Shown: positions 16,251-33,012 of the stretch, one piece after another
How positions within the stretch are numbered: position 1 is the first letter of the stretch
Layout: every line of letters starts with the position of its first letter
NCBI RefSeq assembly: GCF_002902905.1
Contig: NZ_CP026124.1
Span: 6,572,001 to 6,636,000 of the forward strand
Direction: 5' to 3'
DNA: 64,000 nt
DNA from: Achromobacter sp. AONIH1
GTDB lineage: Bacteria; Pseudomonadota; Gammaproteobacteria; Burkholderiales; Burkholderiaceae_B
Program-made: the position numbers and the translations under genes
Notes under the pieces: generated by a model
What the model was told of the DNA's origin: nothing
The model's input: the letters and a program-made list of their open reading frames with translations, nothing else
Database searches by the model: none

Positions 16251-17201
16251 ATGACCCCAGACGCATCGACCGCAGCCACGGCGCGGCTTGCCGTGCATTC
16301 GGTGGACGAGTTCGTGTTCAGCGTTCCCGACCTGGAAGCCGCGCGGCAGTTCTATGCGAGCTTCGGCCTGGACGTGCGCGACGAGGACGGCGGACTGGCG
16401 CTGTACGCCTTCGGCCATCCGCAGCGCTGGGGCCGCATCCGGCAGGCAGCGGGACGCAAGCGGCTGTTGTGGCTCAGCCTGGGCATCCACGCGGGGGACG
16501 CGCCGCGCTTCGCCGAACGCCTGGATCAGCAGGGCATCGCGCGCATCACCGCGCCCGCCGGCGCGGACGATGGCGGCATCTGGATCTCCGGTCCCGACGG
16601 CCTGCCGCTACAGCTGCGCGCCGCGCCCAAGTCCTCGCCGTCGGCGCCGGCGCCGCAGACCCCGCCACAGCCCTGCGCCAATGCCGGCCGCGCCCCCGCC
16701 CGCAGCCGCGCGCCGCGCGTTCAGCCGCTGTACCTGTCGCACATCCTGCTGTTCAGCGCCGATGTGGCGCGGGCCACGCGCTTCTATGTGGACGTGCTCG
16801 GCCTGCGCGTGTCGGACACGTCCGGCGACGTGATCGCCTTTCTGCACAGCCCGCATGGCAGCGACCATCACCTGATCGCGCTGGCCAAGTCCGGCGGCCT
16901 GGGCCTGCACCACACCAGCTGGTGCGTGGCCTCGCTGGATGACGTGGGCCTGGGCATGGAACAGATGAGCGCGGCGGGCCATGGCGAGGGCTGGGGCGTC
17001 GGCCGCCACGTGCTGGGCTCCAACTACTTCCGCTACGTGCGCGACCCCTGGGGCAGCTACGCCGAGTATTCCTACGACATCGATTTCGTCGCGCCCGGCG
17101 CGCCATGGCCCGCGACCGACCATCCGCCCGAGGACGCGCTGTACGTCTGGGGGCCTGCCCTGCCCCCGGACTTCATCACGAACCACGAACAGGACGGCTG
17201 A
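16251..17201 (+). CDS. Two-domain VOC/extradiol-dioxygenase-like protein
   Basis: A 316-residue protein with tandem vicinal-oxygen-chelate domains joined by a Pro/Ala-rich linker at about residues 130-160. The C-terminal domain keeps the metal triad of type I extradiol dioxygenases: His in LSHILLF, His in GLHHTSW and Glu in SYAEYSYD. In the N-terminal domain the first ligand position reads D-E-F, as expected for the inactive repeat. The start at 16251 is chosen because a GGAG site lies six bases upstream; an ATG at 16239 is possible. With the FAH hydrolase it suggests ring cleavage followed by acylpyruvate hydrolysis of an unidentified catechol-type compound. Confidence 0.82.
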   Translation: MTPDASTAATARLAVHSVDEFVFSVPDLEAARQFYASFGLDVRDEDGGLALYAFGHPQRWGRIRQAAGRKRLLWLSLGIHAGDAPRFAERLDQQGIARITAPAGADDGGIWISGPDGLPLQLRAAPKSSPSAPAPQTPPQPCANAGRAPARSRAPRVQPLYLSHILLFSADVARATRFYVDVLGLRVSDTSGDVIAFLHSPHGSDHHLIALAKSGGLGLHHTSWCVASLDDVGLGMEQMSAAGHGEGWGVGRHVLGSNYFRYVRDPWGSYAEYSYDIDFVAPGAPWPATDHPPEDALYVWGPALPPDFITNHEQDG

Positions 17202-17213
17202 GCGGCGGATGTC

Positions 17214-17807
17214 CTACGCCGACAGGCAACGAGGCTGGCGGGACCCCGCGCCCGCCCGCAGCGCCTGCGGCGCCCCCAGCGTCTGGCGCGCGCGCCGCAC
17301 CTCGCCCATGACGCTGTCCACGGTGATGCCGTAGCGCAGCGCCACTTCGCGCGGCGACAGGTCTTCCACGCTGCGGGCCAGCAGGATGGCCTGGCGGCGG
17401 CTGGGCAGGGCCTGCAGGGCGCGCATGCAGGACAGCAGCTCCGAGCGCGCCTCGGCCACCTGCGCCGGACCCGGCGCGTCGTCGGCCAGCAGGCCGGCGT
17501 CATCGCCGTCCTGGCCGACTTCGCGCCAGCCCTGGCGCAGGCCGTCCACGGCCAGGTTGCAGGCCATGCGGAACACGTAGGCGCCCGGATTGCGCACCTC
17601 GGCCGCCTGGCTGGTGGCCAGGCGCAGCCAGACATCGTGCAGGCTGTCGCCGGCCAGGTCCTCGCTGCCCAGGTAGGCCACCAGCCGGCAACGCAGGTCG
17701 TCATAGTGGCTGGCGATGAAACGCTGCAGCGCCGTCGGCTCGCCCGCGCCGGCGGCGCCCGCCCGGATTTCCGCCGGGCGGGCCTCGGTGATGGCGGCCA
17801 TGGTCAC
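17214..17807 (-). CDS. Second ECF sigma-70 factor, coupled to the end of the giant exoprotein gene
   Basis: A 197-residue FecI-like ECF sigma factor. The sigma2 region (SHYDDLRCRLVAYLGSEDLAGDSLHDVWLRL, then NPGAYVFRMACNLAVDGLR) and sigma4 region (LPSRRQAILLARSVEDLSPREVALRYGITVDSVMGEVRRARQTL) are both intact. A GTG at 17807 overlaps the exoprotein stop in a GTGA junction; an ATG at 17801 is the alternative. It is the last gene of the surface-signalling operon and ends 12 bases from the convergent VOC gene. It has no anti-sigma gene of its own, so the FecR at 30656 may serve both factors, or this factor may be controlled only by coupling to exoprotein translation. Confidence 0.88.
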   Translation of the reverse strand: MTMAAITEARPAEIRAGAAGAGEPTALQRFIASHYDDLRCRLVAYLGSEDLAGDSLHDVWLRLATSQAAEVRNPGAYVFRMACNLAVDGLRQGWREVGQDGDDAGLLADDAPGPAQVAEARSELLSCMRALQALPSRRQAILLARSVEDLSPREVALRYGITVDSVMGEVRRARQTLGAPQALRAGAGSRQPRCLSA

Positions 17808-20800
17808 GGCTGCCAGTTGCGCCGCTCGGCCGGCGTCAGCGCGGCCTGCTGCACCGGCGTCAGCGGGCCGTCGCCGACCATTTGGAACACGCTGTCGGCC
17901 CGATAGATCGGCGCCTGCTTGCCGGCGTCGACGCTGGGGCTGGCCGGCGCGCGGCCGGCCGGCAGCTGCTCGTCGCCATAGCCCAGGATCTGCACCGAGA
18001 TGATCGACGGCAGATTCTGGCGCGAGGCGGCGCGGTCGCGCTGCATCACGTCCTGCGCCGCCGCCGTGGCCGTGGAGGCCGCCGCGCTGGCGCTGGACAG
18101 GGCGCCGGTGTTGACCGAGGCGGTCACCGGGATGCCCTTGCTCTCGCCCTGCACCTGGATGTTGGCCGCGTTCACCACGTGCAGCGCCGCGATGTTGACG
18201 TTGCCCGACACCCGGATGCCGGCCTCGCCGGCGTCGATGGTGCCCAGCGGCGCGATCAGGTCCACGTCGCCCGCCGGCACCTCGGGAATCGGCGCCAGCG
18301 TGCCGATGCCGGCGCCGGTGGACGGCACGGTGGGCGACAGCGTCACGTTGCCGAAGGCGTCGTAGACGCGGCGCGGCGGCGTGTACAGCACCGTGGTCTT
18401 GGCGCCGCGCCCGGCGTTGATGTCGCCGTTCGCGGACCAGGCCTGGATGTGGCCGCCGAAGGTGGTCATGATGCGGCTCTGGCCCAGCAGCACGCTGCCC
18501 TGCGCATAGAGCTGGATGTTGCCCTGGCCCTGCGTCACCACGCCAGCGCTGGCCGGCGGGGCCACGCCTTCCACGCCCAGCACCTGCTGGCCGCCCGGCG
18601 TCAGCAGCTGGATGTTGCCGCCGAAACTGCTGCGCAGTCCCGCGCCGCCGTACATCGTGAAGCTGCCCTCGTAGCGGATCGGACCTCCGGCGGCATCGCT
18701 CTCGGGGAACAGCGCCGCGATGGCGCGGCGTCCGCGCAGGTAGCTGCCGAAGCGCTGGCCGCCTTCCTCGTTGTACTCGCGGCCGCCTTCCTTCAGCTCG
18801 GCGAAGAACAGCTGGCGCGCGTAGATGCCGCGCTCCGCCGGCGCCAGCGCCGCGAAGGCCGCGGCCGCGCCGTCCTGGCCGCCCTCGTAGCCATGCTGCT
18901 TGCGCAGCCAGTTCACCAGGTGCAGCTCGCTTTCCTGGCGATAGTCCTGCGACAGATCACGGCGCTTGCGCGAGGCGTCGGCGGCGGCCTGGGCGTCCAC
19001 CTTCGCCTGCTGCCGCGCCAGCTCGCCCTGCGCGCCCTGCTCGTCGCCCTGATAGCCGAAGTGCAGGCGCAGCCAGTTCGCCAGCGTCATTTCGCCGCCG
19101 TAGGACCGCACCACGCGATCCGGATTCGCGCCCAGCGTTTCGCCGGCGGCCAGCGCGCGGGTCGGATCCAGATAGCGCGCCAGCAGGCCCGCGTAGTCCG
19201 GTCCCGCCGCGCCCACGCCGGCCAGCACAGCGATGTCCGCGCCAAGCCGGTTATCGCCGCGCACGATGGCGCCCAGGCTGCGCACGCTGGCCGCGTCGTC
19301 CTGGCGCACCTGGCGCGCCGCCTGCATCAGCAGCGTGCCGGGGCCCGCCACCTGCGCATTGGCGTAGATGATGTCGCGGCCGGCCTCGATCAGCGACAGG
19401 TCGCGCGCATTGTTGTGCAGCGCGGTGACATCCAGGCGCATGATGTCGCGGCCCGCCCGCACCGATACCGGCACGGCGGCCTCGTACCAGGTGTCCGTGC
19501 TGCGGCCGGTATTGCTCATGTCGACCACCGCGCCGCTCTTCAGGCCGAGGATGTCGCCCGTGACCGCGTAGAACCTGGCGACGGTGTCATCGCCCGCGTG
19601 CAGCGCGCGGTTCGTGGGCGAAGCCGGCCCGAAGACGAACAGCGGCTTGTTGTACCCCAGCGACCCAGGCTGCACGCCATCCTTGCTGGTATTGGTCAGG
19701 ATGGGATTGCCGTTCGAGACCTCGAAGGCGCTGAAGGCCGGACGCCAGGGCGTGGGCAGCGGCGCATCGGCCGCCGACATCGACACGGCATGGGCGCCAT
19801 TGGCCAGGATGGAGCGGCCCGCCAGCATCTCGAGCTGGCCGCCCGCCGACGGCGCCAGCAACAGCACCGGGTTGTCGTAGCCCGCGGCATTGTCGGCCAA
19901 CACGATGTTGCCGCCGGCCGCCACGGCGCGCACGATGGACGGATACACGAAATAGCGTCGGCCGTCCGCCGACACCCGCGTGACATCGGAGGACAGTTCT
20001 TCTCCCAGGAACCGGCTGTTGCTGACGGTCATCGGGGTGAGGTTGCCGCCGGCCGAGAACAGATTGATCGCGGTGGACGGCGTCCACAGCGTGAACCAGC
20101 CGTTGCCGCCGCCGACGACCGGATCCGCCGCGCCGATCATCTGGTAGGGACTGGAATTGACCTGCGTGACGCGGCCGGGGTCGCTGACGCCGCCCAGCAC
20201 CAGGTCGGCGCGCGTGTCGATCCAGGCCACGGCGTCGCCCAGCACCAGGCGCGGCCCGCCCATGACCCGGCCCCCGGCCACGGCATACGGATCCGGAGCG
20301 CGCAATCCCGAGCCGTCGCCGTAGCGCAGGTCCATGCCGCCCATCTGTCCGGCCGACAGGCTGATCCGGCCGCGCAGGTTGCCAAGCACGCCGTTCAGAT
20401 CCAGGTTGTCGGACCCGCCCGTATGCGACGGCCCGATCGCCTGCAGCTGGGTGGCGCTCAGCGTGGGATTGAGGCTGCCACCGACGCGCAGATCCAGATC
20501 GCCGCCGCCGGTCAGCACCAGGTTGCCATCCAGCAGGCGGCCGGTGCTGGCGACCACCGCGGTCAGCCCTTGCGAGCGCGCCGCCATGCCGTTGACATAG
20601 AGCGCCGCGTCGCCGCGCGCGTCGCGCACGCCCGCGTCGCGGCCGGCGGCGATGCTGACGTTGCCGCCGCCCAGCGTGCCGAAGCCGGTGAAACCCACCA
20701 CCCTCGGTTCCTTGTAGCCGGCGCCGTAGGGGGAATCGACCGTGTAGGCGCCGAAATTGATCCACCAGCTGGGCGCGATATCGGCCACGCCCGGCGTGCC

Positions 20801-23800
20801 GATGCTGCCCTGGCGCCACAGCCAGGCGCCGGTCATCGTGCTGGAATAGCGCGCCAGGCTGCTGGTCCAGTCGACCTCGACGCCGCTGTTGGCCGCGGCT
20901 CCCATGGCATCGCCGTATACGTCGCGCGCGGCATCGACCAGCAGGTTGCCGCCGTGGTCGGGATACCAGGCCCGGTAAGACGCCAGGGCGGCGTCGTACT
21001 TGCCGTCCAGCTGCATCAGGCCCAGCACGCCGGTCTTGCCGTCATAGCCGCGCGCCAGGTTGAAGCGCGCGTCGGCCGCGCCCAGCGAGGTGGGCGTGCC
21101 GGCGGTGTACACGCCGTACAGCGAAGCCATGCCCACGTCGCGCCCGGCCAGCAGCGACAGGTCGCCGGCGCCGGTGCGCAGCACGCTGAACAAGGGCGAG
21201 CCGAAGACGTACTTGTAGGTGCGGGTGATGATGGTTTCCGAGGTGCCGCCGCCCTCGCAGTGGGCGGCGTTGGCGCAGATGGCCTCCTCGGTCTTGTTGA
21301 GCGCGGCGGCCATTTCCTGCACCGTCTTGCCGACCCAGCTGGCGTTGCCCGCCCACTGCTGCGATCCGGCGGCCGTCACCCTGCGCGGTTCCGGTTCGCA
21401 ATAGGCGCCCCAGGAACACATCGTTTCCCAGTCCAGCTGCCATTCGTCGGCGATCGGCTTGATCGGCTTGCCAGCCAGCGAGGGATCTCCGATCAGTTCC
21501 TCGGCCCCCAGCGGCGTCAGCACCATCACGCCGACAAAGATGGTCTTGGAGGTCTCGGTTCCCCGGCCCGCCAGGCCATAGTGCGTGTCGGACATCACCA
21601 GATCGCCCTTGCTCAGGACGTTGCGCGTGCGCACGTCGGCCGAGCCCAGGTCGGCGCCGGCCACCGCGGTCAGCGTCCAGGCGCTGGCGCCCGCGCCCAG
21701 CATGGGCGCCAGCGCCCAGTTGCGGCCCTGCTTGCCGTCCGGCCCCTTGGACCGCAGGTCCACCGGCTTGCCGCCCAGCAGCACCAGCTTGGTCTGCGAC
21801 GGGATCAGCGAGCCCTGCGCCAGCGTGATCTGCGCACTGGCCTTCAAGTCGGCCGGCAGCGGCACGCCCTTGGGCCAGGTGAAGGCGCGCACGGCGGCCT
21901 CGCCGCGCAGGACGAAACCGGCGCCCAGTTGCGCGCCCGGCGCGAGCTTGAGCTCGCCGGCCAGCACGGTGCCGGCGCGCAGCACGTGGCCGTCGGCGGC
22001 CGTGACGTCGCCGGTCAGCACCAGCCCGGCCGGCAGCGACAGGGCCGCGTCCAGCGTCATCGCCACGGGCAGCACGGTGCCGGCGGGCAGCGTGACGGGC
22101 GCGACCGGCAGGTCGTAGTTCAGCTTGCTGCCGGTGGGGAACATCGTGCCGGCCTCCAGCTTGACACCGCCGATCGGCACCACCAGGTCGCCGCCAAAAG
22201 CCGTGATGCCCTGCGAGCCGAGACGGCCCTGGACCAGCTGCCAGCCGGCGTCGTCCGGCGACTCCGGCGGCGGCCCGAAGCCGTCGTTGATGCTGCCGTA
22301 GATATTCAGGTTGCCGCCGGCGCGCAGCACCAGCACGCCGGGTTCGCCATAGCCGCGCCGCGCGGGCGTGAGGCGGTCGGCGCCCGGGCCGTAGCGGTAG
22401 TTGGACAGGTCGATGTCGCCGGACACGGTCAGGTCGCCGTCCGGCGTGGCGCTGACGACTTCCACGCCAGGACGCAGCTTGTACGCGCCCAGGCCGGCCA
22501 GGCGCGCGGCCACCGCCGGGTTGGCCAGCGCGGCGTTCATGTAGGCCTGGTTCTCGCCGTCGATGCCGTCCAGATAGCCTTGCGTGATTTCCTGCGGGCG
22601 CTTGCCGGTGACGTCCGGCGCGGCGGCCAGCGGCGCGTCGTCGTAGCGGCGGAAGGCGTTCACCGCCACCGTCTTGGCGCCCTGGATCAGCGGAGTGCCC
22701 GCGACCGACACGGCCACGTCGCTGGCGCCGTTGCCCGAGCCGGCGATCGCGCCGCGCTCGGCGCCGCCGCCCAGGCGGCGCGCGTTCAGGTCCAGCGTGC
22801 CGCGAGCCACGCCGTCGTTGTTCTGCGCGCCGACGCCGGCGCGCAGGTCCACCTGGGCGCCGGCGCCCAGCGACAGCGTGCCGGTGCGCGAGGTCAGGTC
22901 GACGATGGCGCGGTTGGCGCTGTCGATGATCTTGCCGTAGCTGTCCACGCGCAGCGTGGTCGAATGCGCGTCGAGCGCGCCGTTGATGACCAGGTCGCCC
23001 ATGGCCGCCAGGCGGATGCTGCCGACCTGCGGACCGCTGGCGTCGATGCGACCGTTGACGGTGAGGCTGCCGCCGTCGACCACCAGCTCGACGTTGCGGG
23101 CCCGCAGCTCGTCGCCGACCGTCAGGTCGCCGCGCTTGATCTGGAAGCGGCGCGCGCCGAAGAATCCGCCTTCGGTCAGGCGGGCGTTCAGCTCGCCGAA
23201 GTCGGCCAGCGCCTGCGCGCGCAGCACGGCTTCGCCACCTTCATACGGCACCAGCGTGCCGCCCGCGTCATAGCGGCCGGAGGCCGTGGCGCGCAAGGTG
23301 CCGCCCAGGTCGATGCGGCCCGCCGAGACGCCCAGCGCGATGGCCTGCACGCGGCCGGCGCGGTTGTTGCGCGCCGACACGTCGATGAGCGCGCCCTTGG
23401 CCTGCGTGATATCGCCAGCCATGCTCTGCAATTCCAGGTCGCCGCCCCAGCTGTAGCGCAGCTGGTCGAACAGACGCACCTCGCGGCCGGCCAGGTCGAT
23501 GCGCGAACCCGCGCCCAGCGCGATGTTGTCGTCGGCCTTGATCGACAGCTTGCCCGAAGGCAGCGCCACCGTCGTGTCGAGCGAAACGCTGCGGCCGGCC
23601 AGGTTGATGGTAGCGCCCAGCGCGTCGCGCGCGGCCGCGGCCGCGCCGGTGCCGGCGACGGACAGCGCGCCGCCGGCCTTGACCGTCATCACCGAACCGG
23701 CCTCGCCGGTCAGGAGCGGCGTGCGGATCAGCAGGTCGCCGCCGCGATAGCGCCAGCCGTCCTGTGCGTTGTAGCCGTCCTGTTCGTGATAGACCGACAG

Positions 23801-26800
23801 CCCGCCCCGGGCCCGACCCGCGATCATCTTGGCGGCGTCCAGGGTCACGGAGGAAAAGCCCAGCAGCAGGCGCTCGGCCGTCACCAGATCGTTCGGCAGC
23901 TGATACGGCGAGGACTCCAGCCGGATCGTGTCGGCCACGACGTTCAGCTTGCCGTGCCCGAGCTGGTCCAGCATGGCGCCGCCGGGCGCCTGCGGCTTGG
24001 TGGCGCCGACATTGATGCCGTTGCGGTCCGCGGCGATCGCGCCCGCCCAGATGAATTCGCCGGCGGCGATGGTGGCCGTGTCGCCCGCCGCGCCGTAGCC
24101 GTAGATGGCCGGCGCGCCCAGCACCAGCCGCTGCAGCGAGCGTCCGCCCGCGCCGCGCGCGTCCAGCGCCACCGCGCCGTACACGTTGATCGATTCGTTC
24201 GCGTTCAGGATCAGGCTCTCGAGCGCCGGCGCGCCCAGCGCCGTATTGCCACGCAGCAGCGTGGCCAGCACGTCCTGGTTCATCTCCAGGCCCGGCGGCA
24301 GGTGGCCCGCCGCGCCGGCCTGCTGCAAGGCCTGGGCGCTGCCCAGGTTGACGGCCGATACGCTCAGCGCCAGGTTGCGCGTGCCGTACTGCACCGTGTC
24401 GCGCCAGGTGAAGCCGCCGCTGGTGGCCGCGCCGATGGACCCTTCGGACAGCAGCAGGGACGCGCCGCCGCAGGCCGCGACGCAGCCGCCCACGTCGATG
24501 GCGGTGCCGGCGCCGCCCTTGGGCGCCATCAGGTTCACCAGCCCGTTCGATACGGCCAGCAAGGCGCCCGAGGTCAGCGCGTAGTACGTGCCCGTGCGCG
24601 CGTCCAGCGCCGCCGCGCCGCGCCCGAGCGTGGACAGCGTCGCGCCCTGCTCGACCACGATGCCGCGCCCGCCGGAGGCCGCGTACAGGAAAATCTCGGG
24701 TGCCGACAGCACGGCGCCGCTGCGCACCAGCAGTTGCGTGTTCTTGGCGTACACGTCCATCTGGCCCGAGTCGTACACGCCCCGGCCCGGCGTGCCGCCC
24801 AGGAACATCGCGCCGGCGGACAGCGCGTTCAGATCAGAGGCCTGGATCGCCGCGGCCTTGGGCCCGAGGATGGGCGCCTGTCCCGCCGCCAGGATCTCAA
24901 GCCCCTGGGCCGGCCCGTTGACGACCAGGCTGCCTGCGTATCCGCCGCTGTCCTTCGGCACGCCGAAGCGCGCCAGGCCCTTGAACGACAGCGCCGGCTG
25001 CCGGCCCATGCCCGCGCCCTCGTCCAGGGTCAGCTGCAGCGCGCGGGCGTCGACGGTCATCAGGCCGCGCTGGGTGCCCTTGCGCGCCGCGTCCGCCAGG
25101 AGGAAGGCGTTGTAGGAGGTCTCGTTGTATTGCGCATGGCGCCGCAGCACGTCGCCCGGCGTGAACAGCAGGCTGGTCGGCAGCGCCGCCCGCTGCGCGG
25201 TGCCGGCCGTGCCCAGCCAGCCGCTGCCGACCCAGGAACCGCCGCGCGTGCGCGCCACGGCGGACGCGTCATAGGCGCCCTGCGCGCCCAGCTCGACGCG
25301 GAACGCGCCCGGCAACAGCGCATAGGTCGAGGGCAACAGCGTATAGGTGCCGGCCGGCAGGCCCGGCACGCCGGCGCCGATGGTCACCTGCCGGCCCACC
25401 GCCGGACTGCCCGCGCCCGCGTCGGCCGCGATCGGCGCCTGGTTGCCGGCAAAGCCCGGCACGATGGCATAGACGGCGTTGCCCGAACGACTGAAGCCGA
25501 ATCCCGGATTGGCGTCGGCCATGGCGTAGCGCAGCACGTCCACCGAGCCGCCGCGTCCGCGCACGAAGGCGCCGCCGCTCAGTTCGCCGCCGCCGGACAC
25601 ATCCAGCACGGCGCCCTCGGCCACCTCGACCGCCTTGCCCTGGATCTCGATCTTGCGGCCGTCGTAGCCGGAGGAACCGGTGGCGTCCGGCTTCACCTCG
25701 TTGCCGGCGTAGAGGTACTTCACCCCATCCACGGTGCCGCCATAGGGCATGAGCAGCCCCGCGCCGCTGACGGAGGTCAGGCTGCCCGGCAGGAACCGTA
25801 CCGTGCCCGGCGCCTGCGGGTTGCTTTCGAAGACGATGCTGCCCAGCGGCGCGCGCAGCACGCCGCCCTGTTCGATCAGCGGCGCCATGAACGTCAGCCC
25901 GCCGAACGCGGCATACGGCACCGCGGGCAGATCGCCGGAGGCGCGCCGGATCGTCAGGACCGCCTTGGGGTTGTAGCTGTAAATGTCTCCCTGCGGCCCC
26001 TTTGCCACGTACTCGCCCGCGGCGATGATGCCGCCGCCCCGGGTGGTCGGGTAGATCTGCGCGGCGCTCAGCGTCATGCGGTCGGGCGCCGCCAGCTTGG
26101 TGCGGATGCTGCGGTCGACAAAGCCCGGGCTGCCCATGCGCAGGTCGCCCTGGACGTCGAAGCGCACGTCGTCAAAGCCGATCAGGTCGCGCAGGCCGCG
26201 CACATCCACCAGATTCGCCGACACGTTCAGCCGGTTGCCGTTGTGGAAGTACTTCAGCGGCTCGGGTCCGAGTTGCACGAAGAAATCGGCGCCCTGCAGC
26301 CCCACATAGCGCGACTGATTGAACAGCAGGTAGGGCGCGCGCAGGTCCACCACGCTGGCCGCCGGCGCGTCCGCGCGCAGCGTCAGCACCCCCGACAGGC
26401 GCAGGCTCTGGCGCATGGCCAGCGTCACGTTGCCGTCGGCGAACACGCTGGCATCGAGCGCCAGGTTGTCGAAGCCGCCCGCCTCGACGCGGTCCACGCC
26501 CAGGCGGCCCGTGCCGTAGACCAGCTCGGCGCTGGCCTGGCCCGGCCGCAGGCCGGCGGCCAGCCGGCTCTCGCCCTGGCGCTGCGTCAGCACCAGCCGG
26601 CGCTCCTGCAGCACCGCCTGTTCCGGCGACAGGTTGCGCTGGTAGAAGGCACCGCCGAACGCAATGCCCAACGTGCCGCCGGCCGCCTGCGCCGAACCGG
26701 CCGCCGCGCGCAGCGCGCCGTCCAGGTGCAGGCTGTTGGCCGAGGCCAGCACGATGCTGCCGCCGTCCGAGCCGACCAGCGTCGCGCCGCGTCCCGGCAG

Positions 26801-29800
26801 GTCCAGCACGGCCTGCGTGCCGGACGCGTCCAGCAGCGAGCCGGGACGCAGGATGACGTGGCGGTCGATGGGACGGGTGCGCGTATCGACATCGGCCTCC
26901 CAGTTCAGCGTGCCGCCGATCTCGATGGCGCCGCCGGCCTGCACCGTGCCATAGCGCCGACCCCTGGCGTCGGTCGCCACATGGCTGCGGCCGGCGGTGT
27001 CCAGCACCGCCTGCTCGCCGATCCAGACCGAACGGGGATTGGCCTTGGGCACATAGGGCTGCTCGCCCTGGCGCGGCTCCTGGATGGAAATGCGGCCGCC
27101 CCAGGCATCGAGCCGGCCCAGCACGGTGATCTGGTCCGCGCCACGGATCTGGATCGAGCGGCCGGGATCGACGCTGACGCGCGCGCCCTCGCCCACCACG
27201 ATGGGGCCGCCTTGCGCGGCCCGGTCCGAGTACAGCGCCAGGTCGGCGCCGGCGCGTTGCGTCAGCGTGCCGCGCAGCGCGTCCTCGGTGTACAGCGCCG
27301 GCGTCCAGCGCGTCAGGACGTCGGCGGGAGGGGCGCCCGATCCGGGCGCCTGCGCGGCGCCGCCTTCCAGCCGCAGCACCGGCATGAGCACGTCGATCCG
27401 TGCGCCGTCCGCGACGGTCAGGCCCTTGTAGCCGTTGATCTCGTATTTGCCGAAGCCGGTGCTGAACAACGACGGGTCCAGCCGCAGCGTGGTGGCGTCC
27501 TGTGCATCCACGGGGCCGCCCAGCACGATCTTGCCGCCGCTGGCCACGGACAGCGTGCCGCCGCCCGTGACGCCGTAGCCGCGCACCTCGCCCGCGAAGG
27601 ACAGCAGGCCGCCGTTGGAAGGAATCTGGCCCAGCACATGCGAGGCCAGCGTCACGTTGCCGCCCTTGCCGCCTTGCAGCTTGCCATCGGACAACAGCGA
27701 GGCGCCGGCGGTCACGTCCAGCACGCTGCCCGCGTCCACGGCCACGTCACCGGTGCCGCGCAGCGCGATGCGGCCGCCGTCGCGCACCGGCAGGCCGGCC
27801 AGGCCGTCGGCGTCCCGCAGCAGATTGGCCCAGACGCCGCGCGCGTCCAGCATCACGCCGCCCGCGACGTGCAGCCGCGCCTGCTGGTTGGCGGCCGGGG
27901 CCAGCGCCGAGTCCTCGAGCCGCACGGCCAGGAACGACGGTTGATACAGCACGTTGCCGGCCTGGATCAGGCCGCCACGGCTGGTCAGATTGGCCTTGAT
28001 GTCCACATCCGGCGCATACAGCGTGATTTCGCCGCCATCGGCGCCGCGCAAGGCCGCATCGACGGTGATGGAACGTCCGGCCGCGACGCGCAGCCGGCCC
28101 AGCGAGAAGCCGTTGAGCTGGTTCGCGTCCAGGAACAGCTTGCCCTTGTTTTCCTGCGGCAAGGCGGCGCCCAGGTCCAGGCCGTCGGCCACCCGCTCGC
28201 GCCCCGCGCCCAGCACCACTTCGGCCACCGTGTCGCCGGTGGCGCCCAGCTGGGAATAGATCTGGCGCGAGGCCGTGTCGTAGTAGCGCACATCGTTGCC
28301 GACCACCAGGCCGGCGCGGCGCGCGGCGGCGCGCTGCGACTGGCTGTAGCCGTCCAGCCCGGACTGCGGCGCGCGGTCCTGGCGCGTGCCCTGGTAGGTG
28401 TCGCCGACCAGATCGCCTTCCAGCACGGCGCTGCGGGTCGAGATGAGCAGCGTGCCGGCGTCGCGGCCGACCGTGTAGCCGTCCTCGTAGCGGGTGCGCG
28501 GCGCCAGCAGCGGGTTGTAGAAGCGGCGCGTGGCCTTTTCGCCCCAGCGCGCGGAACGCTGTTCGTAGCCTTGGTAGACGCCGGTGTAGAGCACGTCGCC
28601 CGGAGCCTTGTCGGCCACGTACAGGCGACCGTCCGCGCCGCGCAGCCAGGTCTGCTGCAAGGTGCCGGCGCGCACGTCCAGCGTGCCGCCCGACAGGTTG
28701 ATGCTGGAGCCCTTCTGCGTCACCACCTCGGCGCCCTCGAAGCGCACCTGGCCGCCCTGCGCCAGCCAGTGGCTGACCGGCACGCCCATGGTGCCCAGGT
28801 AGCCGCCGACTTCCAGCAGGCCGCCGCCGCTGTACCAGCGGTCGCCGTCATAACCGCCGCTGCCGCTGGCGACGCGGATCAGCTCGCGCCGGTCCAGCCA
28901 GATATCGCCGTTGTTGAGCTTGCCGCTGTCGCGGTTCATCGGCGCGTCGCGCTGCTCGTTGCCCTGGACGTTGATCTTGAGATTGTTCGATTCCATCGAC
29001 ACGGCCACGCCGATGGCGCCGCTCACGTCGATCTGCGCGCCGTCGCGCACCAGCGTGCGCTTGCCGGCCTTGACCCCGACCTGCCCGCCGGTCGCCAGCG
29101 TCAGCGAATCGCCCTGGAAGTCGACCGTGCCGCCGCTCTCCACCTGCACCAGCGACAGGTCGCGGCGGTACGGGTCGGTCTGCCCCAGCGTCTGGCCGGT
29201 GGCCAGGCTGGCGGGCATCAGGGCGTCGCGCTGCCCGTCCAGCGCGGTGGCGCCGTCCAGGTCCACCAGGATGGCGGTGGTCGAGCCGGAACGCAGCGTC
29301 ACCGCGCCGTCGGCGCCGACGCCGTTCAGATGGATGGTGCCGCGCGCGTCCACCGAAGTGGTCGAGGCCAGCACGCCGGCCTGCTCGACCTGGCGCGCGG
29401 CCAGCGTGATGTCGCCCAGCGGCGACAGGATCAGGCCGCTATTGCGCACCGTGCCTACACCCGAGGCCGTCACTTCATTGCCGCGCGTGGTCGAGGCGAC
29501 GTTGCCCTCGGTGCCCTGGCCGCGCTTGATCACGAAATTGTCGCCGGCCGCCAGCGCCGCCTGGCCCTTGGGCGTGGTGATGGTGCCGGCATTGTCGACC
29601 TCGCGGCCCAGCAGCAGGACGTAGCCGCCGGACTGGGTCACGGTCGAAGGACGGCTGGTCTCGATGACCGCGCCCGGACGCAGCTCGATCTTGCCCAGCG
29701 CATCGGTGAAACCGGGCGTCTTGCCGTCCGCGCTGTACAGGCCGTTGTTCTGGAACTGCTCGTCGCTGAGGCGCGTGGCCGCGGCCACCAGGTTGCGCAC

Positions 29801-30529
29801 GTTCACCTGCGCGCCGCCGTCGAACACCACGCCGTTGCGGTTGACGATCATCACCGTGCCGTCGGCCTTGATCTGGCCTTGGATCTGCGAGGGGCGCGCC
29901 TTCGGATCGTTGACGCGGTTCAGCACCGCCCAGTTCGGATCCTGGCGGAATTGCACCGTGGTGTTGCGGCCGACGTTGAAGGTCTCCCAGTTCAGGATGG
30001 CCTTCTCGCCGGTCTGCTCGATGGCGACGTTGACGCGGCCGTTGGCGGCGGTCTGCACCGGCGCCCTGGCGTTGCGCCAGCCGGCGGTCAGGGGATTGGC
30101 GTCCACCTTGAGACCGCCCTCCGCCAGGCCGTCCGGCGCCGCGCCGCCCGTGGCCGGCGCGGCGTCGCGGGCCGCGCGCTGGGCCGCCTGCTGCGCGGCG
30201 ATCGACGCGGCGGTGCGCCCCAGGTTGCCCACCGAGCGTTGCAGCTGCTCGCGCGCGGCCTGCGACTGGCGCGCGCCGTCCGGCAGCCCCAGCGCCGGTT
30301 GCCCGTTGGGCAGGCGGCCCGTGACCGCCGTGTTGGCCTGCGCCGCGCCCTTGGCCGCGAACCAGCCGCTGCTGAACGCGGCGGGCTGGGCATGGGCGGC
30401 GCCCGCGCCGACGAGCGCGAGCGAGGCCAGCGCGGTCGCCAGCGGCGTGCGGCGCGGCGCCAGCCGGCCCTTGAGGCTGGCGGCGGAGCGGTTGCGGATG
30501 CGGGAGGGAGTGCGGATGTGGCCGGGCAT
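17804..30529 (-). CDS. Filamentous haemagglutinin-type TPS exoprotein (TpsA), 4,241 residues
   Basis: A very large two-partner-secretion exoprotein. A long positively charged N-region and signal peptide end near AHA (residue 48). The TPS secretion domain runs from about 145 to 300 (AILNWETFNVGRNTTVQF, AVLNRVND, then NRNGVVFDGGAQVNVRNLVAA, where the usual NPNG reads NRNG). The rest is beta-helix sequence of the filamentous-haemagglutinin/DUF3739 type. An LPAG-rich repeat section lies at about 2810-2910, two W-L-R-x-x-x-G-Y repeats at 3819 and 3874, and three close Cys pairs at 2016/2020, 3038/3044 and 3085/3091. No TpsB pore gene is in the window. Upstream lie STN, ECF sigma and FecR genes. 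Likely role: surface adhesin or secreted filament. Confidence 0.92.
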   Translation of the reverse strand: MPGHIRTPSRIRNRSAASLKGRLAPRRTPLATALASLALVGAGAAHAQPAAFSSGWFAAKGAAQANTAVTGRLPNGQPALGLPDGARQSQAAREQLQRSVGNLGRTAASIAAQQAAQRAARDAAPATGGAAPDGLAEGGLKVDANPLTAGWRNARAPVQTAANGRVNVAIEQTGEKAILNWETFNVGRNTTVQFRQDPNWAVLNRVNDPKARPSQIQGQIKADGTVMIVNRNGVVFDGGAQVNVRNLVAAATRLSDEQFQNNGLYSADGKTPGFTDALGKIELRPGAVIETSRPSTVTQSGGYVLLLGREVDNAGTITTPKGQAALAAGDNFVIKRGQGTEGNVASTTRGNEVTASGVGTVRNSGLILSPLGDITLAARQVEQAGVLASTTSVDARGTIHLNGVGADGAVTLRSGSTTAILVDLDGATALDGQRDALMPASLATGQTLGQTDPYRRDLSLVQVESGGTVDFQGDSLTLATGGQVGVKAGKRTLVRDGAQIDVSGAIGVAVSMESNNLKINVQGNEQRDAPMNRDSGKLNNGDIWLDRRELIRVASGSGGYDGDRWYSGGGLLEVGGYLGTMGVPVSHWLAQGGQVRFEGAEVVTQKGSSINLSGGTLDVRAGTLQQTWLRGADGRLYVADKAPGDVLYTGVYQGYEQRSARWGEKATRRFYNPLLAPRTRYEDGYTVGRDAGTLLISTRSAVLEGDLVGDTYQGTRQDRAPQSGLDGYSQSQRAAARRAGLVVGNDVRYYDTASRQIYSQLGATGDTVAEVVLGAGRERVADGLDLGAALPQENKGKLFLDANQLNGFSLGRLRVAAGRSITVDAALRGADGGEITLYAPDVDIKANLTSRGGLIQAGNVLYQPSFLAVRLEDSALAPAANQQARLHVAGGVMLDARGVWANLLRDADGLAGLPVRDGGRIALRGTGDVAVDAGSVLDVTAGASLLSDGKLQGGKGGNVTLASHVLGQIPSNGGLLSFAGEVRGYGVTGGGTLSVASGGKIVLGGPVDAQDATTLRLDPSLFSTGFGKYEINGYKGLTVADGARIDVLMPVLRLEGGAAQAPGSGAPPADVLTRWTPALYTEDALRGTLTQRAGADLALYSDRAAQGGPIVVGEGARVSVDPGRSIQIRGADQITVLGRLDAWGGRISIQEPRQGEQPYVPKANPRSVWIGEQAVLDTAGRSHVATDARGRRYGTVQAGGAIEIGGTLNWEADVDTRTRPIDRHVILRPGSLLDASGTQAVLDLPGRGATLVGSDGGSIVLASANSLHLDGALRAAAGSAQAAGGTLGIAFGGAFYQRNLSPEQAVLQERRLVLTQRQGESRLAAGLRPGQASAELVYGTGRLGVDRVEAGGFDNLALDASVFADGNVTLAMRQSLRLSGVLTLRADAPAASVVDLRAPYLLFNQSRYVGLQGADFFVQLGPEPLKYFHNGNRLNVSANLVDVRGLRDLIGFDDVRFDVQGDLRMGSPGFVDRSIRTKLAAPDRMTLSAAQIYPTTRGGGIIAAGEYVAKGPQGDIYSYNPKAVLTIRRASGDLPAVPYAAFGGLTFMAPLIEQGGVLRAPLGSIVFESNPQAPGTVRFLPGSLTSVSGAGLLMPYGGTVDGVKYLYAGNEVKPDATGSSGYDGRKIEIQGKAVEVAEGAVLDVSGGGELSGGAFVRGRGGSVDVLRYAMADANPGFGFSRSGNAVYAIVPGFAGNQAPIAADAGAGSPAVGRQVTIGAGVPGLPAGTYTLLPSTYALLPGAFRVELGAQGAYDASAVARTRGGSWVGSGWLGTAGTAQRAALPTSLLFTPGDVLRRHAQYNETSYNAFLLADAARKGTQRGLMTVDARALQLTLDEGAGMGRQPALSFKGLARFGVPKDSGGYAGSLVVNGPAQGLEILAAGQAPILGPKAAAIQASDLNALSAGAMFLGGTPGRGVYDSGQMDVYAKNTQLLVRSGAVLSAPEIFLYAASGGRGIVVEQGATLSTLGRGAAALDARTGTYYALTSGALLAVSNGLVNLMAPKGGAGTAIDVGGCVAACGGASLLLSEGSIGAATSGGFTWRDTVQYGTRNLALSVSAVNLGSAQALQQAGAAGHLPPGLEMNQDVLATLLRGNTALGAPALESLILNANESINVYGAVALDARGAGGRSLQRLVLGAPAIYGYGAAGDTATIAAGEFIWAGAIAADRNGINVGATKPQAPGGAMLDQLGHGKLNVVADTIRLESSPYQLPNDLVTAERLLLGFSSVTLDAAKMIAGRARGGLSVYHEQDGYNAQDGWRYRGGDLLIRTPLLTGEAGSVMTVKAGGALSVAGTGAAAAARDALGATINLAGRSVSLDTTVALPSGKLSIKADDNIALGAGSRIDLAGREVRLFDQLRYSWGGDLELQSMAGDITQAKGALIDVSARNNRAGRVQAIALGVSAGRIDLGGTLRATASGRYDAGGTLVPYEGGEAVLRAQALADFGELNARLTEGGFFGARRFQIKRGDLTVGDELRARNVELVVDGGSLTVNGRIDASGPQVGSIRLAAMGDLVINGALDAHSTTLRVDSYGKIIDSANRAIVDLTSRTGTLSLGAGAQVDLRAGVGAQNNDGVARGTLDLNARRLGGGAERGAIAGSGNGASDVAVSVAGTPLIQGAKTVAVNAFRRYDDAPLAAAPDVTGKRPQEITQGYLDGIDGENQAYMNAALANPAVAARLAGLGAYKLRPGVEVVSATPDGDLTVSGDIDLSNYRYGPGADRLTPARRGYGEPGVLVLRAGGNLNIYGSINDGFGPPPESPDDAGWQLVQGRLGSQGITAFGGDLVVPIGGVKLEAGTMFPTGSKLNYDLPVAPVTLPAGTVLPVAMTLDAALSLPAGLVLTGDVTAADGHVLRAGTVLAGELKLAPGAQLGAGFVLRGEAAVRAFTWPKGVPLPADLKASAQITLAQGSLIPSQTKLVLLGGKPVDLRSKGPDGKQGRNWALAPMLGAGASAWTLTAVAGADLGSADVRTRNVLSKGDLVMSDTHYGLAGRGTETSKTIFVGVMVLTPLGAEELIGDPSLAGKPIKPIADEWQLDWETMCSWGAYCEPEPRRVTAAGSQQWAGNASWVGKTVQEMAAALNKTEEAICANAAHCEGGGTSETIITRTYKYVFGSPLFSVLRTGAGDLSLLAGRDVGMASLYGVYTAGTPTSLGAADARFNLARGYDGKTGVLGLMQLDGKYDAALASYRAWYPDHGGNLLVDAARDVYGDAMGAAANSGVEVDWTSSLARYSSTMTGAWLWRQGSIGTPGVADIAPSWWINFGAYTVDSPYGAGYKEPRVVGFTGFGTLGGGNVSIAAGRDAGVRDARGDAALYVNGMAARSQGLTAVVASTGRLLDGNLVLTGGGDLDLRVGGSLNPTLSATQLQAIGPSHTGGSDNLDLNGVLGNLRGRISLSAGQMGGMDLRYGDGSGLRAPDPYAVAGGRVMGGPRLVLGDAVAWIDTRADLVLGGVSDPGRVTQVNSSPYQMIGAADPVVGGGNGWFTLWTPSTAINLFSAGGNLTPMTVSNSRFLGEELSSDVTRVSADGRRYFVYPSIVRAVAAGGNIVLADNAAGYDNPVLLLAPSAGGQLEMLAGRSILANGAHAVSMSAADAPLPTPWRPAFSAFEVSNGNPILTNTSKDGVQPGSLGYNKPLFVFGPASPTNRALHAGDDTVARFYAVTGDILGLKSGAVVDMSNTGRSTDTWYEAAVPVSVRAGRDIMRLDVTALHNNARDLSLIEAGRDIIYANAQVAGPGTLLMQAARQVRQDDAASVRSLGAIVRGDNRLGADIAVLAGVGAAGPDYAGLLARYLDPTRALAAGETLGANPDRVVRSYGGEMTLANWLRLHFGYQGDEQGAQGELARQQAKVDAQAAADASRKRRDLSQDYRQESELHLVNWLRKQHGYEGGQDGAAAAFAALAPAERGIYARQLFFAELKEGGREYNEEGGQRFGSYLRGRRAIAALFPESDAAGGPIRYEGSFTMYGGAGLRSSFGGNIQLLTPGGQQVLGVEGVAPPASAGVVTQGQGNIQLYAQGSVLLGQSRIMTTFGGHIQAWSANGDINAGRGAKTTVLYTPPRRVYDAFGNVTLSPTVPSTGAGIGTLAPIPEVPAGDVDLIAPLGTIDAGEAGIRVSGNVNIAALHVVNAANIQVQGESKGIPVTASVNTGALSSASAAASTATAAAQDVMQRDRAASRQNLPSIISVQILGYGDEQLPAGRAPASPSVDAGKQAPIYRADSVFQMVGDGPLTPVQQAALTPAERRNWQP

Positions 30530-30655
30530 GGAAACGGACTCAGGTTGGGGACCGGATGACGCGCGCCCGGTGTGACTCGGGCCGCTCGCCTGCGATATCT
30601 CCTGTCGTGTTTGCCCGCCCGGAACCCGAACTGGTTTTTTCGTGAATCTTTTGTG

Positions 30656-31624
30656 TCAGCTCAATAACACGATGCCCTTGGGCAGCTGGCGCACATGCGC
30701 GCCGAAGGCCTCGCGGATCCGGTCGATCGCCAGATCCAGCCGGGCGATCTGGAAGCGCCCGCTGACCCGCCGCGCCGCCAGCGCATCGTCCAGCACCATG
30801 ATGCGGCCGGGCCGGTAGCGGTTGATCTCGGCCACCGCCTCGGCCAGCGGCATGTCGCGGAACACCAGCATGCCCTCGCGCCAGCCCATGGCCTGCTCCA
30901 GGTCGGCGCGCGCCGGCGCCGTCACCGCTACGGCGCCGTAGCGCGCCTGCTGGCCGGCTTCCAGCGCCAGTTCGCGCGAGGGATGGCGGATATCCACGCG
31001 GCCCCGCAGGCAGGTAACCGTGACCTCGTCGCCGCTGCGGCGCAGCCCCACGCTGGCGGCGTCCAGCAGGATCTCGCCGGCGCCGGCCGCGACGGTCAGG
31101 CCCTGGCCCTGCTCGGCGCAGGTGATCGCGGCCTGCCCTTCCAGCAGTTCCAGGCGGCGCGGACCGTCGGCCACGTTCATGCGGGTGCGCGCGTCCAGTT
31201 CGACCACGGCCTGCCCGCCGTCCCAGTCGACGGTGCGCTGCTCGCCCACCGCCGTGCTGTAGTCCGCGCCCAGTCCTTCCAGGCTGGCCCACCAGCCCAA
31301 CGGCGGCAGCGCGGCGGCGGCCGCTGCCGCGCCGGCCCCGGCCAGGCCCGCGCGCAGCAGCACCCGGCGGCCGGGCCGCGCCAGCGCGGCCGCCGCCGCG
31401 CGCGGATGCGCGGCGCGGAACGCCCTGCCGGCCTGTCCGATGTCCACCCAGGCGCGCCGCGCCCGCTCGAACGCCGCCGCGTGCGCGTCGCTGTGCGCGC
31501 ACCATTCCCGCAACGCCAGCGCGTCGCGCCGCGTGGCCTGCCCGGACTGGATGCGCCGCACCCAGGCCTCGGCCTCGCTGTCCAGCGCCTTGGCGCCCGA
31601 TTTGAAGTAGCGGCTGAAAATCAT
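30656..31624 (-). CDS. FecR-type anti-sigma factor / signal-transducing membrane protein
   Basis: A 322-residue FecR-family protein. The cytoplasmic N-terminal sigma-binding segment (about 1-65) has AEAWVRRIQSGQATRRDALALREW, a single hydrophobic span lies near 85-110, the FecR beta-solenoid domain covers 120-230, and a C-terminal STN-like domain (MLVFRDMPLAEAVAEINRY and onward) covers 240-320. The ATG at 31624 overlaps the sigma stop as ATGA, which decides the start and indicates translational coupling. It should hold the sigma factor inactive until a periplasmic signal arrives. The next gene downstream, after 126 bases, is the giant TPS exoprotein rather than a TonB-dependent receptor. Confidence 0.9.
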   Translation of the reverse strand: MIFSRYFKSGAKALDSEAEAWVRRIQSGQATRRDALALREWCAHSDAHAAAFERARRAWVDIGQAGRAFRAAHPRAAAAALARPGRRVLLRAGLAGAGAAAAAAALPPLGWWASLEGLGADYSTAVGEQRTVDWDGGQAVVELDARTRMNVADGPRRLELLEGQAAITCAEQGQGLTVAAGAGEILLDAASVGLRRSGDEVTVTCLRGRVDIRHPSRELALEAGQQARYGAVAVTAPARADLEQAMGWREGMLVFRDMPLAEAVAEINRYRPGRIMVLDDALAARRVSGRFQIARLDLAIDRIREAFGAHVRQLPKGIVLLS

Positions 31625-32160
31625 CGATCCGACCTTGAATACGGCAGGCGCGCGCGGCAATAGGCCTGCGCGTGCTGCAGCTCGCGCTCCACCATGCGTA
31701 CCGAAATGCCATGCCGCGCCGCCAGCTCCTTTTGCGTGACGCCGTCCAGGCGCGCCGCCAGCAGGATCTCGCGCTGGCGCTCCGGCATGCGCTCCAGCGC
31801 CCGCATCAGGGTCTGCAGCGCCTGCCGGTCCTCCGCGATCTGGGCCGGACCGGGCGCGGCGTCGGGCGTCAGCCCCAGGATCTCGTCGGCCTCGGCGCGC
31901 GTCAGCCTTTCATCGCCCGAGCGCGCGTAGTCGGCGGCGATGTGGAAAGCCATGCGGTAGATGTAGGCCTCGGGCTGCCGCACCGCCTCGGGCGCGGCGA
32001 CGCCGTCCAGCTTCAGGTACGCGTCCTGCAACGCGTCGCCCGCCAGCTCGTCATTGCCCAGGCGGGCGGAAAGGCGGCGCTTGAGCCGGTCATAGTGGGT
32101 GACCAGCGACTTGCGCAACGAAGCCAGGCCGCCGTCCTTCATGGGGCCGGTCCCTGGCAT
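31621..32160 (-). CDS. ECF sigma-70 factor (FecI-like)
   Basis: A 179-residue ECF sigma factor. Region 2 is seen in THYDRLKRRLSARLGNDELAGDALQDAYLKL and QPEAYIYRMAFHIAADYAR, and region 4 in LERMPERQREILLAARLDGVTQKELAARHGISVRMVERELQHA. An internal ATG at 32142, preceded by AGGGA, may be the real start. The end overlaps the FecR start by four bases. The neighbours on either side are an STN-domain protein and FecR, so a trans-envelope signalling cascade is well supported. Its promoters are probably those of this operon, including the exoprotein. Confidence 0.9.
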   Translation of the reverse strand: MPGTGPMKDGGLASLRKSLVTHYDRLKRRLSARLGNDELAGDALQDAYLKLDGVAAPEAVRQPEAYIYRMAFHIAADYARSGDERLTRAEADEILGLTPDAAPGPAQIAEDRQALQTLMRALERMPERQREILLAARLDGVTQKELAARHGISVRMVERELQHAQAYCRARLPYSRSDR

Positions 32161-32208
32161 GGCGGACCGGGATGGCGGTCCTGGCGGAACGCGTCCGCGC
32201 TCTTGCCG

Positions 32209-32877
32209 TTATGCAAGACAATCTCCGGTGGCCGCGGCCTGCCCAGGCCGGATCACAAAGGTGATGGGCTGGCCCACGCCCGGCGGCGCGGCCTCGTCCA
32301 GTTTCAATCGTCCCAGCCGCTGCGTCAGCAGCTGATCGCGCTCGGGCGAACCCGTGGAATCCAGCAGGCGCACGCGCCGCACCTGGCCGCTGTCGCCGAA
32401 CCACAGGCTGACCGCCGCGCGGTAGCTGCCCGGGCGCACATCCGGGTCGCCGCAAAGCAGCGCGCGCATGGCGGCCTGCAGCTTGCCGTAGTAGCGCTGC
32501 CGCGCCGCCAGCGTCTCGGCCAGCCCCGGCGCGGCTGTCGCCACGGCGGCGAGCGTGAAGGTGTCCGGCGAGCCGTAGCGCGCCTGCAAGCCCGAATCGC
32601 CCAGCATCAGCCGCAGCGCCGATTCCGCCGTGTAATGCCCCGCCACGCCGCGCGAGCGCCTGCCCGCGACCAGCCCGCTGTCGTACAACCCGGAATGTCC
32701 GGTGCTGGCGGTGAAGCGCTGCAGCGCCTCGGCCAGCGGCAGCGCCGGGATGTCGAAGAAGCGCAGGCCCTGCGCGTCCCCGCCCGGCGCCGCCTGGCCG
32801 CGCGCCGCCAATGCCGCGACGAGCAGGAGGCAACGAGTCAGGAACCGCGCGCCGCGCGCGCCTCGAAAGTGAGCCAT
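32209..32877 (-). CDS. STN-domain periplasmic signalling protein without beta-barrel (VreA-like)
   Basis: A 222-residue exported protein. After a signal peptide (FLTRCLLLVAALAARGQAA) comes an STN signalling domain at about 35-110 (FFDIPALPLAEALQRFTASTGHSGLYDSGLVAGRRSRGVAGHYTAESALRLML). A C-terminal TonB-C-like domain follows at about 125-215 (YYGKLQAAMRALL through VRRVRLLDSTGSPERDQLL). FecA-type receptors carry STN fused to a large barrel, which is absent here. The first gene of the STN-sigma-FecR order matches vreA-vreI-vreR of the P. aeruginosa PUMA3 system. It may pass the surface signal to FecR. The start at 32877 gives a clean signal peptide although the ribosome site is weak. Confidence 0.82.
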   Translation of the reverse strand: MAHFRGARGARFLTRCLLLVAALAARGQAAPGGDAQGLRFFDIPALPLAEALQRFTASTGHSGLYDSGLVAGRRSRGVAGHYTAESALRLMLGDSGLQARYGSPDTFTLAAVATAAPGLAETLAARQRYYGKLQAAMRALLCGDPDVRPGSYRAAVSLWFGDSGQVRRVRLLDSTGSPERDQLLTQRLGRLKLDEAAPPGVGQPITFVIRPGQAAATGDCLA

Positions 32878-33012
32878 GGCAGGAATAGTCGAACATAGCC
32901 GTCGATGCTCACCGCGAGGACGGGAGGCGCCAGTGCTGCCGCAGCATAGTCCGGGCATGTGACCGGTACATGACGCGTCACGGCGCGAGGCCCGCGCCGC
33001 CGGCCGATGACC

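Follow-up and report, generated by a model that had tools for sequence, protein, structure and literature searches.

What controls a giant two-partner secretion (TPS) exoprotein whose gene lies directly behind genes for a sensor, a sigma factor and an anti-sigma factor, and directly before a gene for a second sigma factor? This arrangement occurs in a 64-kb stretch of the Achromobacter sp. AONIH1 genome (contig NZ_CP026124.1, positions 6,572,001 to 6,636,000; hereafter the window). By its architecture, the five-gene block belongs to the PUMA3 type known from Pseudomonas aeruginosa, from which it departs by a second sigma factor and strong gene amplification. We consider it probable that the block is a cell-surface-signalling unit for one giant exoprotein, TpsA, and that PhoB and the first extracytoplasmic function (ECF) sigma factor together drive tpsA. 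An earlier note on this DNA had likewise read it as a surface-signalling operon controlling the exoprotein and had compared it with P. aeruginosa vreA-vreI-vreR; overall, that interpretation is partly supported.

Organization of the block

The gene order described in the earlier note holds, with all five genes on the minus strand and a domain match for each. The STN-protein gene (32877–32209, 222 residues from the ATG at 32877; PF07660 STN) is followed by ECF1, the sigma factor in the VreI position (32160–31621, 179 residues; Sigma70_r4_2, Sigma70_ECF), and by a FecR/VreR-like anti-sigma factor (31624–30656, 322 residues; PF04773 and PF16220 above cut-off). Next come TpsA (30529–17804, 4,241 residues; PF05860, PF12545, TIGR01901) and the second ECF sigma factor, ECF2 (17807–17214, 197 residues; Sigma70_r4_2). 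The TPS secretion domain of TpsA (PF05860, residues 150–399, 30082–29333 on the minus strand) scores 110 bits (cut-off 33.5), and its DUF3739 (PF12545, residues 4025–4135, 18457–18125 on the same strand) is likewise far above cut-off.

The genes are closely packed. The FecR ATG overlaps the ECF1 stop codon, and the ECF2 GTG overlaps the TpsA stop codon, with an alternative in-frame ATG at 17801. Gaps of 48 and 126 nucleotides separate STN from ECF1 and FecR from TpsA, respectively. This spacing suggests that the five genes form one operon; consensus scans of the intervals 30400–33400 and 16500–18500 picked up neither a sigma-70-type promoter nor an intrinsic terminator. The periplasmic part of FecR matches PDB chain 6ovk_R (E 4.8e-17) and is, by this comparison, PupR-like. 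ECF2 has no adjoining anti-sigma gene, and no TpsB is encoded within the window.

The sensor was described earlier as a small STN protein without a barrel, and the domain search agrees: in its 222 residues there is no TonB-dependent barrel. To that description we add a TolA/TonB-like C-terminal domain. The STN part matches the signalling domains of PupB, FecA and FpvA. The TonB C-terminal profile match is weak and below cut-off, and in a predicted model the C-terminal part superposes on TolA/TonB domains. This model was built from four sequences and has a mean predicted local distance difference test score of 58, with low confidence in the STN half. A Foldseek search with it gave no hit with an E-value of 0.001 or lower; the TolA match comes from a second comparison. 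The sensor is thus bilobal like VreA, with an STN and a TolA/TonB-like domain and no barrel.

Conservation and amplification

The block is conserved in relatives, both within part of the genus and in further genera of its family. We compared 40 blocks from those further genera. TpsA immediately follows the STN-ECF-FecR trio in 32 of them, and 11 of those 32 (11/40 overall) have the full five-gene order with a lone sigma gene after TpsA. These 11 come from four genomes in three genera and include near-copies (L178/L195, L170/L190). Two further blocks have a second sigma but lack an upstream trio on the same strand, the match in L176 being only a partial, weak one at the edge. Twenty loci of other families are organized differently: the trio occurs in two, a TpsB-TpsA arrangement in its place in 17, and neither in one.

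The exoprotein and its regulators differ in how well they are conserved. Between loci L098–L101 and the window, the TpsA ends are 74–78% identical, whereas STN, ECF1, FecR and ECF2 share only 30–42%. On this comparison, the exoprotein has stayed conserved, and its regulators have either diverged or been replaced by exchange. Two relatives carry genes split over two frames, TpsA in L110 (2108–14553, minus strand) and FecR in L112 (2180–3153, plus strand); these are sequencing faults or disrupted copies, and intact relatives exist.

The AONIH1 genome (6.65 Mb, one contig) encodes five TpsAs with DUF3739, whose open frames span 4,113–4,283 codons, and a trio lies beside each. It has four ShlB-type genes, all outside the window; one of the four, a PdtB-type TpsB, matches this kind of TpsA (contig positions 5894361–5895977, ∼0.69 Mb from the block). 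At one of the five loci, the genes after TpsA are those for TpsB, for an ExbB carrying additional domains, an open reading frame (ORF) called ExbD-like by eye, and those for TonB and a porin. In locus L023 (3914–5821, minus strand), the gene after TpsB encodes an ExbB-type protein whose ExbB part is preceded by DUF2341 and laminin-G-like domains.

Another of the five loci carries TpsA, the trio, two Phd-like genes, a sigma gene that we call ECF2′, and pseudopilin-like genes. The same order is repeated in three named Achromobacter records, and the pseudopilin domains are supported in the A. deleyi record. Loci L021 (1445–4505) and L026 (8524–10971) have two Phd-like genes between FecR and ECF2′, then pseudopilin-like genes. 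One Phd-like protein matches a DUF772 transposase domain in Pfam; P. aeruginosa PA0691/phdA is likewise listed as transposase-like.

Exoprotein and pore genes occur together across the genus. DUF3739 TpsAs were found in 25 of 43 genomes (58 matches), and a PdtB-like TpsB (E 1e-20 or better) in the same 25 (26 matches, one genome having two). The remaining 18 genomes, two of them clearly incomplete, have neither. A family survey of 250 genomes, 17 of them from the genus, gave DUF3739 matches in 38. The highest count was 13 TpsAs in one genome; a second genome, of the same genus as that one, has 11 open genes. Nine TpsA-rich genomes, picked for at least three DUF3739 matches (some in G473 and G487 being fragments), were searched for the PdtB-type TpsB; each has exactly one, including the genome with 13 TpsAs. 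This co-occurrence suggests that a single PdtB-type TpsB exports this TpsA, and may export all DUF3739 TpsAs.

Pho-box-like sites and candidate promoters

We scored every position against a pho-box consensus; a site here denotes a sequence match only. The threshold of 12 was chosen after this window's site was known, and scores for the window and for 12 Achromobacter loci are not blind; the threshold was kept unchanged for 34 loci fetched later. Six sites in the window score 12, counting both strands, and three of the six lie at this block on the minus strand. One (32976–32959) lies ∼100 bp ahead of STN. The other two (30670–30653 and 30659–30642) precede tpsA and overlap both each other and the FecR stop codon.

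Sites scoring at least 12 are concentrated at these two positions in other loci as well. The 12 Achromobacter loci have seven in 3,840 positions on the STN side, six in 1,800 on the TpsA side and 20 in 383,350 elsewhere. The 34 later loci are those of 60 fetched from other genera or families in which FecR lies directly before TpsA on the same strand, near-copies kept. Here, 16 sites fall in 10,560 positions upstream of STN and 11 in 5,780 upstream of TpsA, compared with 43 in 1,318,784 elsewhere. Sites are thus ∼50 times denser at the STN and tpsA promoters of these loci than elsewhere.

These data bear on whether the block might be an ordinary iron-type FecI/FecR system that merely adjoins a TpsA gene. 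In favor of that reading, ECF and FecR families are common to iron systems. Against it, the sensor has no TonB-dependent barrel, the trio precedes TpsA directly in most blocks of the family, both promoters show an enrichment of pho-box-like sites, and PUMA3 of P. aeruginosa has been published as not iron-regulated (PMC7035377). We judge an iron-type system very improbable, given the missing barrel and the pho-type sites.

A sigma factor element at tpsA is harder to place. A candidate −10-like element, CGACAGG (30607–30601, minus strand), lies 52 bp from the pho-box start, close to the spacing found in other genera. Among 26 TpsA-side boxes scoring at least 11 there, CGWC occurs 49–50 bp from the box start in 13, compared with seven occurrences at all other offsets from 30 to 74 combined (near-copies counted). 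We derived a profile from 10 of these loci, all outside the genus. It ranks position 30659 first of 127,800 window positions, a rank that comes through the pho half of the profile (22.3). A composite score was matched in one of 300 shuffles of the single upstream region, its −10 part having been derived from the same loci, and was no better than chance in the related loci L022, L098, L099, L101 and L109. Strong matches to the −35/−10 half without a pho box were seen in L024 (near 2553, minus strand), L110 (near 15716, minus strand) and L112 (near 2101, plus strand). These fall between ECF1 and FecR and could allow separate expression of the anti-sigma factor.

The second sigma factor

As far as sequence can tell, ECF2 is a real second sigma factor, recurrent and of its own lineage. 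We built a tree of 82 sigma factors, comprising 56 first sigmas, 20 second sigmas and six ECF2′. All 56 first sigmas fall on one branch (support 97), together with just one second sigma, that of L171, which sits on a long branch and comes from a rearranged block; the other 25 of 26 second sigmas, ECF2′ included, lie outside it. By a quick method, the first-sigma label changes twice on this tree, compared with 22.3 times in shuffles. In smaller trees limited to Achromobacter, the 13 second sigmas all cluster together (support 96/91, and 94/89 without long rows).

The ratios of nonsynonymous to synonymous substitution (dN/dS) between this genome and genome G012 are 0.27 for STN, 0.33 for ECF1, 0.40 for FecR, 0.49 for TpsA and 0.36 for ECF2; ECF2 is under purifying selection. 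Alignment of ECF2s and ECF1s (leaving out L171 and L176) shows strongly conserved blocks in both groups, which we take to be the core- and DNA-binding regions. Within the genus, a close ECF2 ortholog (75% identity) occurs in one further genome among 42, and more distant orthologs follow TpsA in five further genomes, one of them split over contigs. A search of named records with ECF2 found six loci, the four best of them from Achromobacter. In 13 of 19 loci, a possible in-frame start of ECF2 (ATG, GTG or TTG) is no more than 25 nucleotides from the TpsA stop; in the other six the distance is larger. Outside the family, an ECF gene after DUF3739 was seen in none of the 28 loci of a limited order survey with 1.5-kb flanks where the contig allowed. 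We found no description of a second sigma after TpsA in open PubMed Central (PMC) papers.

ECF2 and ECF1 share ∼42–43% identity. As a distant relative of ECF1 without an adjoining anti-sigma gene of its own, ECF2 might be held by the block's FecR, so that both sigmas would be parallel outputs of one sensor, not steps of a relay. This seems unlikely to us, given that ECF2 is missing beside many FecR genes.

ECF2 may instead direct another regulon, such as the tpsB-exbB locus or pseudopilin-type secretion genes. Two observations favor this possibility: ECF2′, of the ECF2 lineage, lies directly before pseudopilin genes at another locus here and in the named Achromobacter records, and VreI in P. 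aeruginosa controls the Hxc secretion genes and pdtB. If it were true, making one exoprotein would turn on export functions elsewhere. On the other side, no common target gene was seen downstream of ECF2, the listed neighbors, compared by eye, differing among loci, and no ECF2 promoter was picked out here. On balance, we regard control of another regulon as possible yet rather doubtful.

Loci with ECF2 tend to have weak pho boxes at tpsA: a box scoring at least 12 is present in one of 17 loci with ECF2 versus 13 of 29 without it (Fisher 0.007, rank test 0.0008). We do not claim an association, because just three independent pairs lie on supported branches. ECF2 could take over part of PhoB's job; shared descent can explain the weak boxes as well.

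A model for regulation and export

We infer the following course of events, from phosphate sensing to co-transcription, export through the PdtB-type TpsB and the role of ECF2. Under low phosphate, PhoB would switch on STN-ECF1-FecR through the site at 32976–32959, and would also sit just upstream of tpsA at 30670–30642. FecR would act as a brake, holding ECF1 until its release by a periplasmic event, perhaps one in which the VreA-like sensor takes part. Freed ECF1 would then work with PhoB to transcribe tpsA and the terminal ECF2 gene, and TpsA would be exported by the single PdtB-type TpsB ∼0.69 Mb away. The ECF2 gene comes last, overlapping the end of the 12.7-kb tpsA, and no anti-sigma gene adjoins it; ECF2 could therefore be a late sigma that appears once tpsA has been transcribed to its end, reinforcing its own or linked promoters. 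Among the readings of ECF2 we favor this late, completion-coupled positive loop, if only tentatively. A further extension, in which ECF2 locks expression on one block while rival blocks share one pore, giving a choose-one surface-coat switch under phosphate starvation, is speculative and improbable.

Several observations weigh against parts of this model. Sites scoring at least 12 were found in just 16 of the 34 later loci on the STN side and in 10 on the tpsA side. At this tpsA, the −35/−10 half of the profile from other genera scores −4.5. Because the rank of 30659 rests on the pho half, we regard the pho box as well supported and the ECF promoter element as a candidate only. In P. aeruginosa, loss of VreA left VreI-dependent expression under phosphate starvation unaltered, which makes the sensor role doubtful; virulence in the model used was also unaltered (PMC7035377). 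ECF2 is missing from 21 of the 32 trio-TpsA blocks of the family, and its presence changes eight times on the TpsA tree, with at least five changes forced. ECF2 has therefore been repeatedly gained, lost or exchanged, and is dispensable in many loci. Finally, the window's ECF2 joins the other ECF2s weakly in the 82-sigma tree (support 72), and for this reason we call a single origin of ECF2 no more than likely.

This patchy distribution, along with the single other genome of the genus that has a close ortholog, would also suit an ECF2 that is a duplicated copy carried by chance, with no function of its own. Three lines of evidence make such a stray copy quite unlikely. The dN/dS of ECF2 is similar to those of ECF1 and FecR, its sigma regions are conserved, and its separate lineage recurs in four genera and is not a recent copy of the neighboring ECF1.

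Other features of the window

A gene for a major facilitator superfamily transporter adjoins the sensor gene. Opposite TpsA, an antisense ORF of 4,225 codons (17882–30559, plus strand) was rejected as a codon-usage artefact, because the TpsA frame has no TTA, CTA or TCA codons and the antisense frame of relatives holds 3 to 31 stops (six of six compared). Elsewhere, the window encodes an autotransporter of 2,050 residues (3643–9795, minus strand) with an ESPR, PATR repeats and an autotransporter beta-domain.

Relation to known systems

The likeness to P. aeruginosa vreA-vreI-vreR proposed earlier is borne out. Both systems share the sensor-sigma-anti-sigma order, a barrel-free sensor that by architecture joins an STN to a TolA/TonB-like domain, a linked giant TPS exoprotein, and pho-box-like sites before the trio and tpsA. 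In P. aeruginosa, PhoB is needed for vreAIR and pdtA, which also depend on VreI, and the mapped pdtA promoter combines a pho box with −10 and −35 elements that are essential (PMC4971064). Unlike PUMA3, the block here has tpsA directly after the trio, then a second sigma of another lineage, with tpsB elsewhere; there are five blocks in this genome versus one in P. aeruginosa. Compared with FecI/FecR/FecA, the block shares a FecI-like sigma, a FecR anti-sigma and an STN signalling domain, but it differs in its sensor without a TonB-dependent barrel, its exoprotein target and its phosphate-type rather than iron-type sites.

The contrast with PUMA3 drawn in the earlier note survives in part. The P. 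aeruginosa exoprotein gene is indeed separate, and the second sigma is real and recurrent; direct linkage of the trio to tpsA, by contrast, was already published. Llamas 2009 reported the PUMA3 cluster repeated four times in Rhodopseudomonas palustris and Janthinobacterium, with tpsA after three of the repeats and tpsB plus exbBD after the fourth. Those clusters resemble the five blocks here, one of which has tpsB, exbB and tonB. They differ in that the Llamas 2009 passages on these clusters mention no second sigma, and a genome surveyed here reaches 13 TpsAs. A shared pore also has a precedent in Bordetella bronchiseptica, where one TpsB, FhaC, serves FhaB and FhaS (PMC5422565). Here too, a single pore would serve more than one exoprotein, but the ratio reaches 13 TpsA genes to one matching TpsB, and most of the TpsA genes come with dedicated sigma and anti-sigma genes.

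These comparisons suggest that PUMA3 of P. aeruginosa is a simple instance of an amplified design. In such a design, several giant exoproteins, the majority of them behind dedicated sigma, anti-sigma and sensor genes, have phosphate-regulator-like sites and face one matching pore gene. To this design, the present analysis adds a recurrent second sigma lineage. It also makes three questions testable: what role a VreA-type sensor may play, whether exoproteins may compete for one pore, and what a sigma gene may do at the end of a 12.7-kb message.

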